DNA of 53,774 bases from positions 1-53,774 of the forward strand of contig JANWVM010000009.1 in the NCBI GenBank assembly GCA_025056115.1, read 5' to 3'. The position numbers were made by a program, and so were the translations under genes. Each line of letters opens with the position of its first letter. Within the stretch, counting starts at the first letter, position 1. The stretch comes from Gloeomargarita sp. SKYG116 (GTDB taxonomy: Bacteria; Cyanobacteriota; Cyanobacteriia; Gloeomargaritales; Gloeomargaritaceae). Under the pieces are notes generated by a model, which saw only the letters and a program-made list of their open reading frames with translations, was not told the origin of the DNA and ran no database searches. This document shows positions 8,485-40,320 of this stretch, piece by piece.

Positions 8485-8737
8485 ACATCGAACAAGGCGC
8501 AGACCCGTCCTTGGTTGTTTCCCAGAGACTTCCCTTGAGGTGATAGTCGTATGAGGTGCGACGAATCGCAAACTTCAGCCTCTGATGGTGTAGCTAGGCT
8601 ATTTATGGTTGCTATCCCCTGGGTCGCAGGGCGCAGCCCCGTCCTTGGTTTTTTGCTCATCCTTCTGACGAACTGCAGCAGCTTAGCTATAGTATGATGG
8701 CTGCCCAGACTATACCGACTACCAGATTCGTGAGTTT
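8485..8737 (+). promoter_or_regulatory. corA upstream region with direct repeat and motif shared with the mgtE leader
   Basis: This 253-base interval between rsmB and corA has no credible ORF. It holds a 25-base direct repeat (see 8496-8654). Bases 8620-8637 read TGGGTCGCAGGGCGCAGC and match bases 38146-38163 in the mgtE leader at 17 of 18 positions. The motif ends 100 bases upstream of the corA start. Since both downstream genes are magnesium transporters, a common regulatory signal is a reasonable hypothesis. No strong -35/-10 pair was identified here. Confidence 0.4.
8496..8654. repeat. Imperfect 25-base direct repeat pair upstream of corA
   Basis: Bases 8496-8520 and 8630-8654 match at 23 of 25 positions (core CCCGTCCTTGGTT preceded by GGCGCAG). 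The offset is 134 bases. It may be a small dispersed repeat or a duplicated regulatory element. The second copy overlaps the motif shared with the mgtE leader. Confidence 0.7.
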
Positions 8738-37757: not shown

Positions 37758-37817
37758 GGCGCGTCCTCCCTTGCACTGCGCTACCTAACAGTTTATACGC
37801 ATGGTTGTGGTGGTTGG

Positions 37818-37846
37818 TTGACACCTCCCGAAGGTTGGACTACTTT
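37818..37846 (+). promoter_or_regulatory. Sigma-70-type promoter for mgtE-mgtC
   Basis: TTGACA (37818-37823) is followed after exactly 17 bases by TACTTT (37841-37846), giving a perfect -35 and a fair -10 at ideal spacing. Transcription would begin near 37853, about 390 bases upstream of the mgtE start codon. Confidence 0.6.
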
Positions 37847-37897
37847 GAAAGAGTGGCAGTTCCGGCTGCCGGTACACCTAGTTTTTCAGGAGAACTT

Positions 37898-38023
37898 ATG
37901 GATGGGGCTGACGGCAGTAGTTACCTGGTAGGGCGGTCTTGCTGGGTAAAACTGTGGTGGTCTCTACTCCTGCCGTGTTCAGTTTGTGAATTGATGGATT
38001 TGCCGCTGGGACTAGGTTCTTAG
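37898..38023 (+). CDS. Possible 41-codon leader ORF in the mgtE 5' region
   Basis: An ATG at 37898 follows CAGGAG with a 5-base spacing and opens 41 codons to TAG 38021-38023. The product starts MDGADGSSYLVG and has a Trp/Leu/Cys-rich stretch (WVKLWWSLLLP). It resembles no protein family I know. It begins about 45 bases after the predicted transcript start and stops 18 bases before a strong hairpin. That arrangement is typical of leader peptides, but it could be chance. Confidence 0.25.
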   Translation: MDGADGSSYLVGRSCWVKLWWSLLLPCSVCELMDLPLGLGS

Positions 38024-38041
38024 TGCCCCTAGGTTTATCCG

Positions 38042-38085
38042 CCATCACCGCTGAGCAGGGCAGGCTGGACGCAAGCGGTTGATGG
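38042..38085 (+). promoter_or_regulatory. Strong hairpin in the mgtE leader
   Basis: CCATCACCGCT (38042-38052) pairs with AGCGGTTGATGG (38074-38085), giving 11 bp with one bulged U and a 21-base loop. No U tract follows, so it is not a simple terminator. Confidence 0.5.
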
Positions 38086-38145
38086 AGGTAAGCCATGCCC
38101 AAACTGTAATGGTCGTTCCCTCATTATCAGGCTCACCCGACTGAG

Positions 38146-38208
38146 TGGGTCGCAGGGAGCAGCTTTCTTTTGCAGATGGCTGATGGCGACGGAGCACTTG
38201 TCATCGGC
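38146..38208 (+). promoter_or_regulatory. corA-shared motif and second leader hairpin before mgtE
   Basis: Bases 38146-38163 (TGGGTCGCAGGGAGCAGC) match 17 of 18 bases of the motif at 8620-8637 before corA. GCTGATG (38179-38185) pairs with CATCGGC (38202-38208), 7 bp with one G-U. The hairpin ends 20 bases before the mgtE ribosome binding site. Confidence 0.45.
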
Positions 38209-38242
38209 AGTGTCCCACCTGGCCTGGAAGGAGGTAGTCATC

Positions 38243-39619
38243 ATGGCGCGGTATCCCTTAGATGATTTACTGGCGTATCCCAAAGCCTTTGGCGCGGCGA
38301 AGCGAACAGCCAATCAGTTGGATACGGTGGAACTATTGCGTTTGCTGCGGGAATTGCCACCACGAAAGCAAATATTGGCCTTTCGGATGCTGGAAAAAGA
38401 CCGAGCAATTGCCGTGTTTGAGGCATTGACACCAGAGGAACAGGCGGAATTGGTTCATCGGATGACCGACCCGGAAATTGCAGCATTTCTGGAAGCCCTA
38501 GAACCCGATCAACGGGTGCGGTTATTTGAAGAATTGCCCGCCAAGGTGACGAAGCGATTGCTCCAGCAATTGAGCGAAGAATCGCGCCGGGCCGTGAATT
38601 TGCTCTTGGGTTATCCCGAAAATAGCGTGGGGCGGCGGATGAATCTACGTTATTTGGCCCTACGGGATCATTTCACGGTAGAACAGGCCATTCAGGCGAT
38701 TCGCCATTCCGGTTTACCGGATGAAGAACTCAATATCCTTTTCGTGATTGATGCCGAGCGCTTTTACCAAGGTTTCCTTCGCCCGACGCAGTTGATGAAG
38801 GCCGACCCGCAAACCCTCGTTGGTACCCTTGCCCAGGGGCGGGATATCGCCATCACGGTGACAACGCCGGAGTTGCTCGCAGCGAAACGCCTTAAGGAAC
38901 TTGACTTGCCTGCGATTCCGGTGGTGGATAGCGAGGGCCGCTTGGTAGGGGATTTGAGCTTCGATGATGTGCTGGATTTGATCGAAGCAGAAGCCACTGG
39001 CGCGATGCTGACCAAGGCAGGGGTTGGGAATCTGCTCGAGCGTGACCAGGGCTGGAGTGAACGGCTGGTGCAGGGACCCATACGCTACGCCATTCAATTG
39101 CGCATTGTTTGCCTAGTCATCACCCTGATCGGGGGGATGCTGGTCGGCGCTGTCGTCCAAACCTTTGAGGAGGTCTTGGAGGCGGTTGTAGCTGTGGCGG
39201 TGTTTATCCCAGTGGTCATGGACATGGGGGGCAATGTGGGCACCCAGTCCACCACTATCTTCGCGCGAGGGCTGGCGTGGGGGCACATTGATATTCGTCG
39301 CTACGGGAGTTACCTGCTGCGGGAGTTGCGCATCGGGGCTGCGATGGGCGCAATTCTTGGGGTAGCCGCAGGTTTGATTGCCTGGTTATGGCAAGGGATA
39401 CCCAACGGCGTGCCGCAACTAGGCCTGGCGGTAGGCTTGACCATGTTTATCGTGCTCACGCTGGCAGCAGTGATAGGAGCGTTCTTGCCCTGGTTGTTAT
39501 TGAAGCTTGGCTTTGACCACGGCCCGGCCTCCGACCCCTTCGTCACTACCATCAAGGACTTCACGGGGTTACTGCTCTACTTCTTGCTGGTGAGTTGGCT
39601 GTTGGGTATCCAGGTATGA
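38243..39619 (+). CDS. mgtE: Magnesium transporter MgtE
   Basis: A 458-residue homodimeric Mg2+ channel from ATG 38243, which has AAGGAGG eight bases upstream; a longer frame from 38183 is less likely. It has the N-terminal helical domain (about 20-120; ALTPEEQAELVHRM, LPAKVTKRLLQQLSEE), then two CBS domains (to about 255; LIPAIPVVDSEGRLVGDL-like block), the connecting plug helix, and five transmembrane helices with VVMDMGGNVGTQSTTIFARGL, the pore region. Asp-rich Mg2+ sensor positions are in the N and CBS parts. The stop overlaps mgtC in ATGA. Confidence 0.96.
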   Translation: MARYPLDDLLAYPKAFGAAKRTANQLDTVELLRLLRELPPRKQILAFRMLEKDRAIAVFEALTPEEQAELVHRMTDPEIAAFLEALEPDQRVRLFEELPAKVTKRLLQQLSEESRRAVNLLLGYPENSVGRRMNLRYLALRDHFTVEQAIQAIRHSGLPDEELNILFVIDAERFYQGFLRPTQLMKADPQTLVGTLAQGRDIAITVTTPELLAAKRLKELDLPAIPVVDSEGRLVGDLSFDDVLDLIEAEATGAMLTKAGVGNLLERDQGWSERLVQGPIRYAIQLRIVCLVITLIGGMLVGAVVQTFEEVLEAVVAVAVFIPVVMDMGGNVGTQSTTIFARGLAWGHIDIRRYGSYLLRELRIGAAMGAILGVAAGLIAWLWQGIPNGVPQLGLAVGLTMFIVLTLAAVIGAFLPWLLLKLGFDHGPASDPFVTTIKDFTGLLLYFLLVSWLLGIQV

Positions 39620-40320
39620 CGTTGACCGAGTTCACCATACGCTTGGCGGTCGCCTTTTTGCTGGGGTCGGCTCTAGGGTTGGAGCGACAATGGCGGCAAC
39701 GCATGGCGGGCTTGCGCACCAATACCCTGGTGGCGACAGGAGCGGCCCTGTTTGTGATGCTTTCGGCGTTGATCCCTGGGGATACCAGCCCTACACGGAT
39801 TGCGGCTCAGGTGGTCTCTGGTATTGGGTTCTTGGGCGGGGGCGTGATCCTGCGGGAGGGCTTGAGCGTGCGGGGGTTAAACACGGCAGCCACCCTCTGG
39901 TGCGCCGCAGCGATTGGTTCCCTGGCCGGTGCGGGACTGTTGTCCCAGGCAACAGTTGGGGCCATTGCTGTGCTGATTGCCAATCTCGTCCTGCGACCCC
40001 TGGGCCATCGCATCAACCAACAGCCGCTCAAGGGCACCGAGGTAGAGTTGGTCTATCGCTGCGAAGTGACTTGCCGCGCTGAGAATGAAGCCCATATCCG
40101 CGCGTTGTTGCTCCAGGCAATGGCAGCAGCAAATCAGCTACACCTGCGGTCCCTCTCGAGCGAGGATTTGGCAGATGGGTCTGACCAGGTGCATGTCCAG
40201 GCAGAACTCATGACCCAAGAGCGCAACGATGCGTTCCTCGAACAAATCGTGAGTCGTCTGAGCTTGGAACCAGGCGTCACCTCTGTCCGCTGGCGGATTA
40301 CCGAGCAGGAGTTTGGTTAA
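39616..40320 (+). CDS. MgtC/SapB family protein
   Basis: A 234-residue protein from ATG 39616, overlapping the mgtE stop. Four to five transmembrane helices fill the first 140 residues, with the family signatures GSALGLERQWRQRMAGLRTNTLVATGAALFV-type start (in short pieces LGLERQWR and GLRTNTLVA), SGIGFLGGGVILREG and VRGLNTAATLWCAAAIG. A cytosolic ACT-like C-terminal domain follows. MgtC proteins support growth at low Mg2+ and modulate ATP synthase or membrane potential in other bacteria. Coupling with MgtE suggests a shared Mg2+ homeostasis function. Confidence 0.93.
   Translation: MTLTEFTIRLAVAFLLGSALGLERQWRQRMAGLRTNTLVATGAALFVMLSALIPGDTSPTRIAAQVVSGIGFLGGGVILREGLSVRGLNTAATLWCAAAIGSLAGAGLLSQATVGAIAVLIANLVLRPLGHRINQQPLKGTEVELVYRCEVTCRAENEAHIRALLLQAMAAANQLHLRSLSSEDLADGSDQVHVQAELMTQERNDAFLEQIVSRLSLEPGVTSVRWRITEQEFG

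Follow-up and report, generated by a model that had tools for sequence, protein, structure and literature searches.

The stretch of DNA analysed here (the window, 53,774 nucleotides) belongs to the 2.37-Mb draft genome of Gloeomargarita sp. SKYG116, and six other species of the genus are among the genomes compared with it. It carries an operon of two overlapping genes, mgtE and mgtC, behind a long leader (Table 1), and its MgtE is 84% identical to that of congener G003. The predicted promoter consists of a -35 hexamer TTGACA (37818-37823), a 17-nt spacer and a -10 hexamer TACTTT (37841-37846), with a transcript start predicted near 37853, and the promoter at the matching site in G003 reads TTGACA-N17-TAGATT. 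Given this promoter of the same layout at the same site and its distance to mgtE (38243), the 5' UTR of about 390 nt proposed in a preliminary description of the locus agrees with our reading. The promoter had also been called near-perfect, which holds for the -35 hexamer but not for the -10 hexamer, where only three of six positions match, so that a consensus promoter scan reported no site. As a whole, the leader is less structured than had been claimed, its total folding energy lying within the range of shuffled sequences (z -1.45, with equally low energy in 10 of 100 shuffles). The earlier list of features lacked an upstream open reading frame (uORF1), three RNA arms (A, B and C) and a second, tiny ORF (uORF2), all of which are located in the leader; leader peptides had been placed in other bacteria, whereas a conserved peptide ORF is present here. 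The Shine-Dalgarno (SD) sequence of mgtE itself, AGGAGG at about 38229-38234, lies outside arm C.

Table 1. Features of the mgtE-mgtC leader and operon, in positions of the window.
Feature	Positions	Strand	Basis and remarks
Promoter TTGACA-N17-TACTTT (predicted)	37818..37846	+	Read from the sequence; layout kept in G003
SD AGGAGA of uORF1	37888..37893	+	Read from the sequence; SD before uORF1 in nearly all relatives
uORF1, peptide MDGADGSSYLVGRSCWVKLWWSLLLPCSVCELMDLPLGLGS, then stop	37898..38023	+	Codon alignment with G003; family pattern; 3'-end LM[N/D]LP codons in common
Long helix, 5' strand CTGCCGTGTTCAG	37970..37982	+	3' strand at 38051-38063; CTGCCGTGGTCAG in the aligned mgtA leaders
Arm A (GATGGATTTGCC...CTAGG), inside the 3' end of uORF1	37993..38016	+	11/12 identical to GATGAATTTGCC of relatives
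Arm B (GGTTTATCCGCCATCACCGC), 3' of the uORF1 stop	38032..38051	+	Aligns with family arm B GGTTCATC...
Arm C (GCGGTTGATGGAGGTAAGCC), pairs with B	38075..38094	+	Contains SD GGAGGT 38084-38089
uORF2, MPKL and stop (ATGCCCAAACTGTAA), directly 3' of arm C	38095..38109	+	G003 has its mgtE start codon at the counterpart position
Spacer between uORF2 and mgtE, with repeat core 38146-38163	38110..38242	+	Outside the conserved leader; alignment z -0.7 (38111-38242)
mgtE, Mg2+ transporter	38243..39619	+	Pfam MgtE_N/CBS/MgtE; TIGR00400
mgtC	39616..40320	+	Pfam MgtC; overlaps mgtE; same gene 3' of mgtA in congener G004

The uORF1 peptides of the family follow the consensus M[DE]xSGSSxxxxxQExxxxSDEDP, often with MNLPxxxL at the 3' end. 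The N-terminus in the window, MDGADGSSYL, aligns codon by codon with MEADSSSCL of G003 with one in-frame codon indel, and the acidic residues fall at D2/D5 in the window and at E2/D4 in G003. The window peptide keeps MDxxDGSS and LMDLP and is without DEDP, as is that of G003, and the uORF1 of sister genome G001 has a premature stop at codon 20. Among some 3,018 ORFs of the window itself uORF1 is the only one that fits the family pattern; a full-length peptide HMM ranks it 277th of about 3,020, i.e. does not recover it. The pattern M[DE]xx[GS]SS stands upstream of mgtE even in distantly related cyanobacteria: within the close MgtE subfamily 15 of 30 loci have it, and in other subfamilies 0 of 22 (reverse strand 0, shuffles 0.1), five of these 15 having been viewed before the pattern was written and therefore not being independent. 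A profile built from residues 1-23 gave strong matches among 390 cyanobacterial genomes, including mgtA leaders (e.g., those of congeners G002 and G004) and one Nramp leader. Codon-position entropy over the first 8 codons was uninformative. Substitutions, on the other hand, favor similar residues in the frame of uORF1 only, and most of all at the acidic block (excess of 2.07 vs -0.66 and -1.12), and this frame-specific pattern makes it very likely that uORF1 is translated and that its acidic residues are under selection.

Across the family, arm A is made up of the MNLP codons, arm B (GGGTTCATCTCTGGTCGCC) comes after the uORF1 stop, and arm C (GGCGACTGTACCGATAAGGAGATGAACC) lies just 5' of an ATG and holds an SD sequence, with the pairings A:B and B:C being mutually exclusive. 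For B:C, 93% of cells are paired, 7 of 18 pairs show two-sided changes and covariation exceeds that of all 500 shuffles; for A:B the paired cells again reach 93%, compared to 14-50% in slid controls, and covariation is modest. In each of two separate genomes (L216 and L225), a single C to U change in arm B goes together with G to A changes in arms A and C alike, which is what one would expect if both helices are important. Folding with arm A masked increases the average pairing of the SD from 0.59 to 0.86; the increase for the window is from 0.50 to 0.80, and its B:C hairpin is then long (-30.6 kcal/mol) and covers the SD. Arm A pairs with arm B in the minimum-energy fold of the window, but this pairing by itself is not beyond shuffles (31 of 300), and a strong A:B is lacking in G003. 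In a swap test of A:B among leaders, own pairs scored better than swapped ones (-26.6 vs -22.4 on average), not decisively for single leaders, and the test was negative for G003. Mutually exclusive stems are predicted, in other words, which covary in part in the family and are weaker in the window. The long helix, counted by hand, has 13 of 13 pairs in G003 (UUGCUCUGUUCAG/CUGAACGGGGCAG) and 12 of 13 in the window. A lack of covariation and of leader conservation had been named in the preliminary description as what would speak against its reading; B:C does covary and the leaders are conserved.

Downstream of arm C, uORF2 is missing from several relatives, and tiny ORFs stand at the same place in mgtA leaders. 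An insertion of 38095-38242 in the window was considered and ruled out, as relatives also have a tiny ORF there and a long spacer, and G003 is, given these long spacers, best read as having lost its spacer by deletion. The spacer of the window holds the 18-nt motif TGGGTCGCAGGGnGCAGC (38146-38163) that had been described as shared with corA. It is indeed present at both sites (8620-8637 at corA), but the meaning given to it was wrong: with 59 copies in the host genome and 35-61 in four congeners (about 0 for the reversed pattern, and zero copies in G003 and G006) it is a dispersed repeat, which carries no information on Mg2+, and the 59 genomic copies rule it out as a Mg2+ signal. At corA the motif is the core of a dispersed element of about 105 nt with TATAGCTAAG-like ends, while the mgtE spacer contains the core alone, beyond the conserved portion of the leader. 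This element, seen at 8583-8699 and 8493-8521 with near-inverted ends TATAGCTAAG...CTTAGCTATA and the core TGGGTCGCAGGGCGCAGC, looks like a MITE-like repeat.

The relationship of the window copy to the family is most evident from direct alignment. Positions 37901-38110 reach a summed local alignment score of 332 to 14 family leaders; none of 200 shuffles exceeded 211 (z 13.8) and none of 132 other window pieces exceeded 210.5, and the G003 leader reaches z 16.1. Taken singly, the nearest relative of the window leader is the leader of mgtA in congener G002, and the last part of uORF1 (CTGCCGTGTTCAGT...GATGGATTTGCC), arm B and arm C follow one another in the alignment as they do in the family. 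A covariance model built without G003 detects that leader with 26.6 bits, the match stopping at the start codon of mgtE; for the window copy, covariance-model search by itself gives 11.8 bits (E 0.38 over 53.8 kb, E 0.025 over 701 nt), and a model of all three arms (R2), run with default filters, gave no match in the whole window. By sequence, the window leader is clearly homologous but a divergent member of the family. A comparison of the host genome (G000, window 37758-39619) with G001 (L003) showed 98% identity in the leader and 99% in MgtE as against 79% in the adjoining 185-aa gene, so that operon and leader appear to have been exchanged recently, as one, between the two lineages.

Divergence of this kind could also mean that the family is real but the leader is decaying in the lineage of the window, with mgtE expression perhaps largely constitutive. 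The DEDP block missing from both the window and G003, the truncated uORF1 of G001, the weak covariance-model score and an mgtE SD just 5' of 38243, beyond the reach of arm C, are all in line with such a decay. However, the promoter, the start and N-terminus of uORF1 and all three arms are still alignable, the B:C hairpin of the window is long, and the N-terminal acidic pair is retained in the window and in G003, as in MgtQ of Salmonella. We regard decay as rather unlikely, albeit worth keeping in mind.

Searching the 390 cyanobacterial genomes with the B:C covariance model at E<=3e-6 yielded 25 loci, each of them (25/25) with a uORF1 132-183 nt upstream; one further match, in a duplicate copy at the end of a contig of G149, is not among them. 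The next gene is mgtE at 14 loci (one degenerate), the P-type ATPase gene mgtA at eight and an Nramp gene at one, with two loci lacking an assignment. Given that 16 of the sequences at these loci had gone into the model or its peptide counterpart, it is the association with transporters, not the match scores, that counts as independent evidence. Two weaker matches (L229 and L234), with neither a uORF1 nor a transporter, are false positives. Within the genus itself the transporter has been swapped: congeners G002 and G004 have the leader before mgtA and are without a window-type mgtE, and leader-mgtA-mgtC in G004, whose mgtA matches TIGR01524 (magnesium-translocating P-type ATPase) in full, stands against leader-mgtE-mgtC in the window. 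Homologous leaders that precede mgtE, mgtA and one Nramp gene across cyanobacteria bear out the core of the preliminary description, a Mg2+-related cyanobacterial leader unrelated to the M-box, as far as the link to Mg2+ transporters is concerned.

Several further observations were made at these loci. At L241 (G004) and L239 (G121), the leader and mgtC that enclose mgtE at window positions 37818-40320 flank mgtA instead. An Nramp-family gene lies under the Mg2+-transporter leader at L240 (G096:C113) and may be a Mg2+-transporting Nramp relative. Small ORFs between leader and transporter (L157-L163 for mgtE; L182, L184, L189 and L205 for mgtA), among them MFEICLSCAVAEALVGITL..., MFVLFEFVLDHIDDVLAIVCG... 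and a DUF7219 protein, possibly encode small proteins of Mg2+ transport. In G149 (C1:1783048-1783108, L236) a leader with uORF1 MEDSGSSSSFITATQETIALLDEDPEPG... is followed by a degenerate mgtE. Outside cyanobacteria, the mgtE loci L037 (2706-2822) and L038 (2675-2782) of Chloroflexi have Ser-rich and acidic uORFs (MEDVSSPSSSSEDASS... and MDAESSSPSSDTTDN..., respectively) followed by hairpin-forming sequence, and maybe represent the same system in another phylum.

A covarying hairpin and two exclusive folds upstream of Mg2+ transporters would also be found in a direct Mg2+ riboswitch, in which the ion itself shifts the balance of A:B and B:C and uORF1 is incidental. This is improbable in our view, as uORF1 accompanies every strong locus and is selected at the amino acid level with its center on acidic residues, and its simple hairpins lack an ion-binding core as large and conserved as that of an M-box. 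An action of the uORF1 product in trans on the transporter, as a small protein like MgtR or MgtS, would agree with a conserved and probably translated peptide next to transporter genes; it is very improbable nonetheless, since most of the peptides are Ser-rich and acidic rather than membrane-like, the 3' codons of uORF1 form an RNA arm and one and the same peptide is found before transporters of three unrelated kinds. The Ser-rich start of uORF1 might finally recall an attenuator for Ser or Cys starvation that sits before transporters by chance, but with only three to four Ser codons, the strongest selection on Asp/Glu and a Mg2+ or metal transporter as every identified target, this can hardly be entertained.

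No known RNA family accounts for the element. The Rfam scan of the window leader and of the leaders of its relatives had no match at the gathering threshold and only chance matches at permissive thresholds, in agreement with the preliminary statement that an M-box consensus is absent, and the M-box covariance model matched neither the window leader nor those of its relatives. The likeness to the M-box (ykoK leader) is that both are leaders of Mg2+ transporters. Neither Rfam nor the open literature searched (subscription papers lay outside the search) yielded a description of the element, and a Mg2+-responsive cyanobacterial leader of this kind was likewise not found in that literature; the leader is apparently an undescribed cyanobacterial control element.

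Attenuators of the MgtL/MgtQ type rely on a Mg2+-dependent abort of translation that depends on ribosomal protein bL31. The Salmonella peptide MgtQ impedes its own synthesis through Asp2 and Glu5, and by way of alternative stem-loops this increases translation of mgtB (PMC8092293), and MgtL and CorL work comparably, with a uORF and alternative leader structures (PMC11552253). MgtL, in the enterobacterial mgtA leader, resembles the cyanobacterial element in having a short ORF with early acidic residues, a Mg2+ transporter and two exclusive folds (PMC11552253), but it is unrelated in sequence, Pro-rich and Rho-acting, whereas the cyanobacterial leader is predicted to act by SD sequestration without Rho and also precedes mgtE and an Nramp gene. 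MgtQ, encoded between mgtC and mgtB in Salmonella, has its Asp2/Glu5 where the window has D2/D5 and alternative stems that release the ribosome-binding site of the transporter (PMC8092293); it differs in belonging to another phylum and in its unrelated sequence, and the cyanobacterial family adds DEDP in most relatives and sits before a whole operon. The 5' region of corA with CorL is similar in that a Mg2+ channel gene is preceded by a uORF and by alternative structures (PMC11552253), and at the corA of the window no CorL-like element was found, only the dispersed repeat. What the cyanobacterial leader has in common with the MgtL/MgtQ type is a short, probably translated ORF before a Mg2+ transporter, early acidic residues (acidic residue 2 plus DEDP in the family, D2 and D5 only in the window) and exclusive stems. 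The Rho RNA-binding domain is absent in 7 genomes of the genus, with control genomes positive, so that the Rho-dependent termination that defines MgtL in the strict sense does not apply and SD sequestration is more plausible than a Rho route. With the defining features of strict MgtL and of the M-box both lacking, we assign the element to neither; it would function like known nascent-peptide control, with an unrelated peptide and RNA, in another phylum and without Rho.

We consider it probable that the window leader belongs, as a diverged copy, to a conserved family of cyanobacterial nascent-peptide attenuators for Mg2+-transport operons. As far as sequence comparison can tell, its family is conserved, selected in frame, equipped with competing helices and associated with transporters, and the position of arm A within uORF1, far downstream of the acidic block, suggests that the choice between the stems is coupled to uORF1 translation. 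When Mg2+ is ample, the ribosome would complete uORF1 and cover arm A, B would pair with C, and with the SD hidden expression would be low. When Mg2+ is scarce, the acidic nascent chain, with its N-terminal Asp/Glu and, in most relatives, the DEDP block about 20 codons in, would cause the ribosome to drop off ahead of arm A; that arm, left free, would pair with B, arm C would open and the downstream gene would be expressed. The site freed in G003 would be the mgtE start itself, and in the window the four-codon uORF2, with a stop 133 nt before mgtE, from which expression might be coupled onward to mgtE.

To our knowledge, Mg2+ sensing in cyanobacteria is poorly understood, even though Mg2+ is the ion at the center of chlorophyll. 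The occurrence of the same element before three unrelated kinds of Mg2+ (or metal) transporters suggests that cyanobacteria measure Mg2+ by whether ribosomes can complete a tiny peptide. For the wider proposition, a Rho-free nascent-peptide Mg2+ sensor that evolved separately from MgtL/MgtQ and is portable before MgtE, MgtA and Nramp across cyanobacteria, and perhaps Chloroflexota, we see the case as evenly balanced. The element allows a direct reporter test in a laboratory cyanobacterium, and it would mark genes as candidates for Mg2+ responsiveness, including an Nramp gene of uncertain metal preference. A peptide-plus-RNA element common to unrelated Mg2+ transporters would point to convergent nascent-peptide sensing of Mg2+ and, if true, acid-triggered ribosome drop-off would be a widespread bacterial way to measure this ion.
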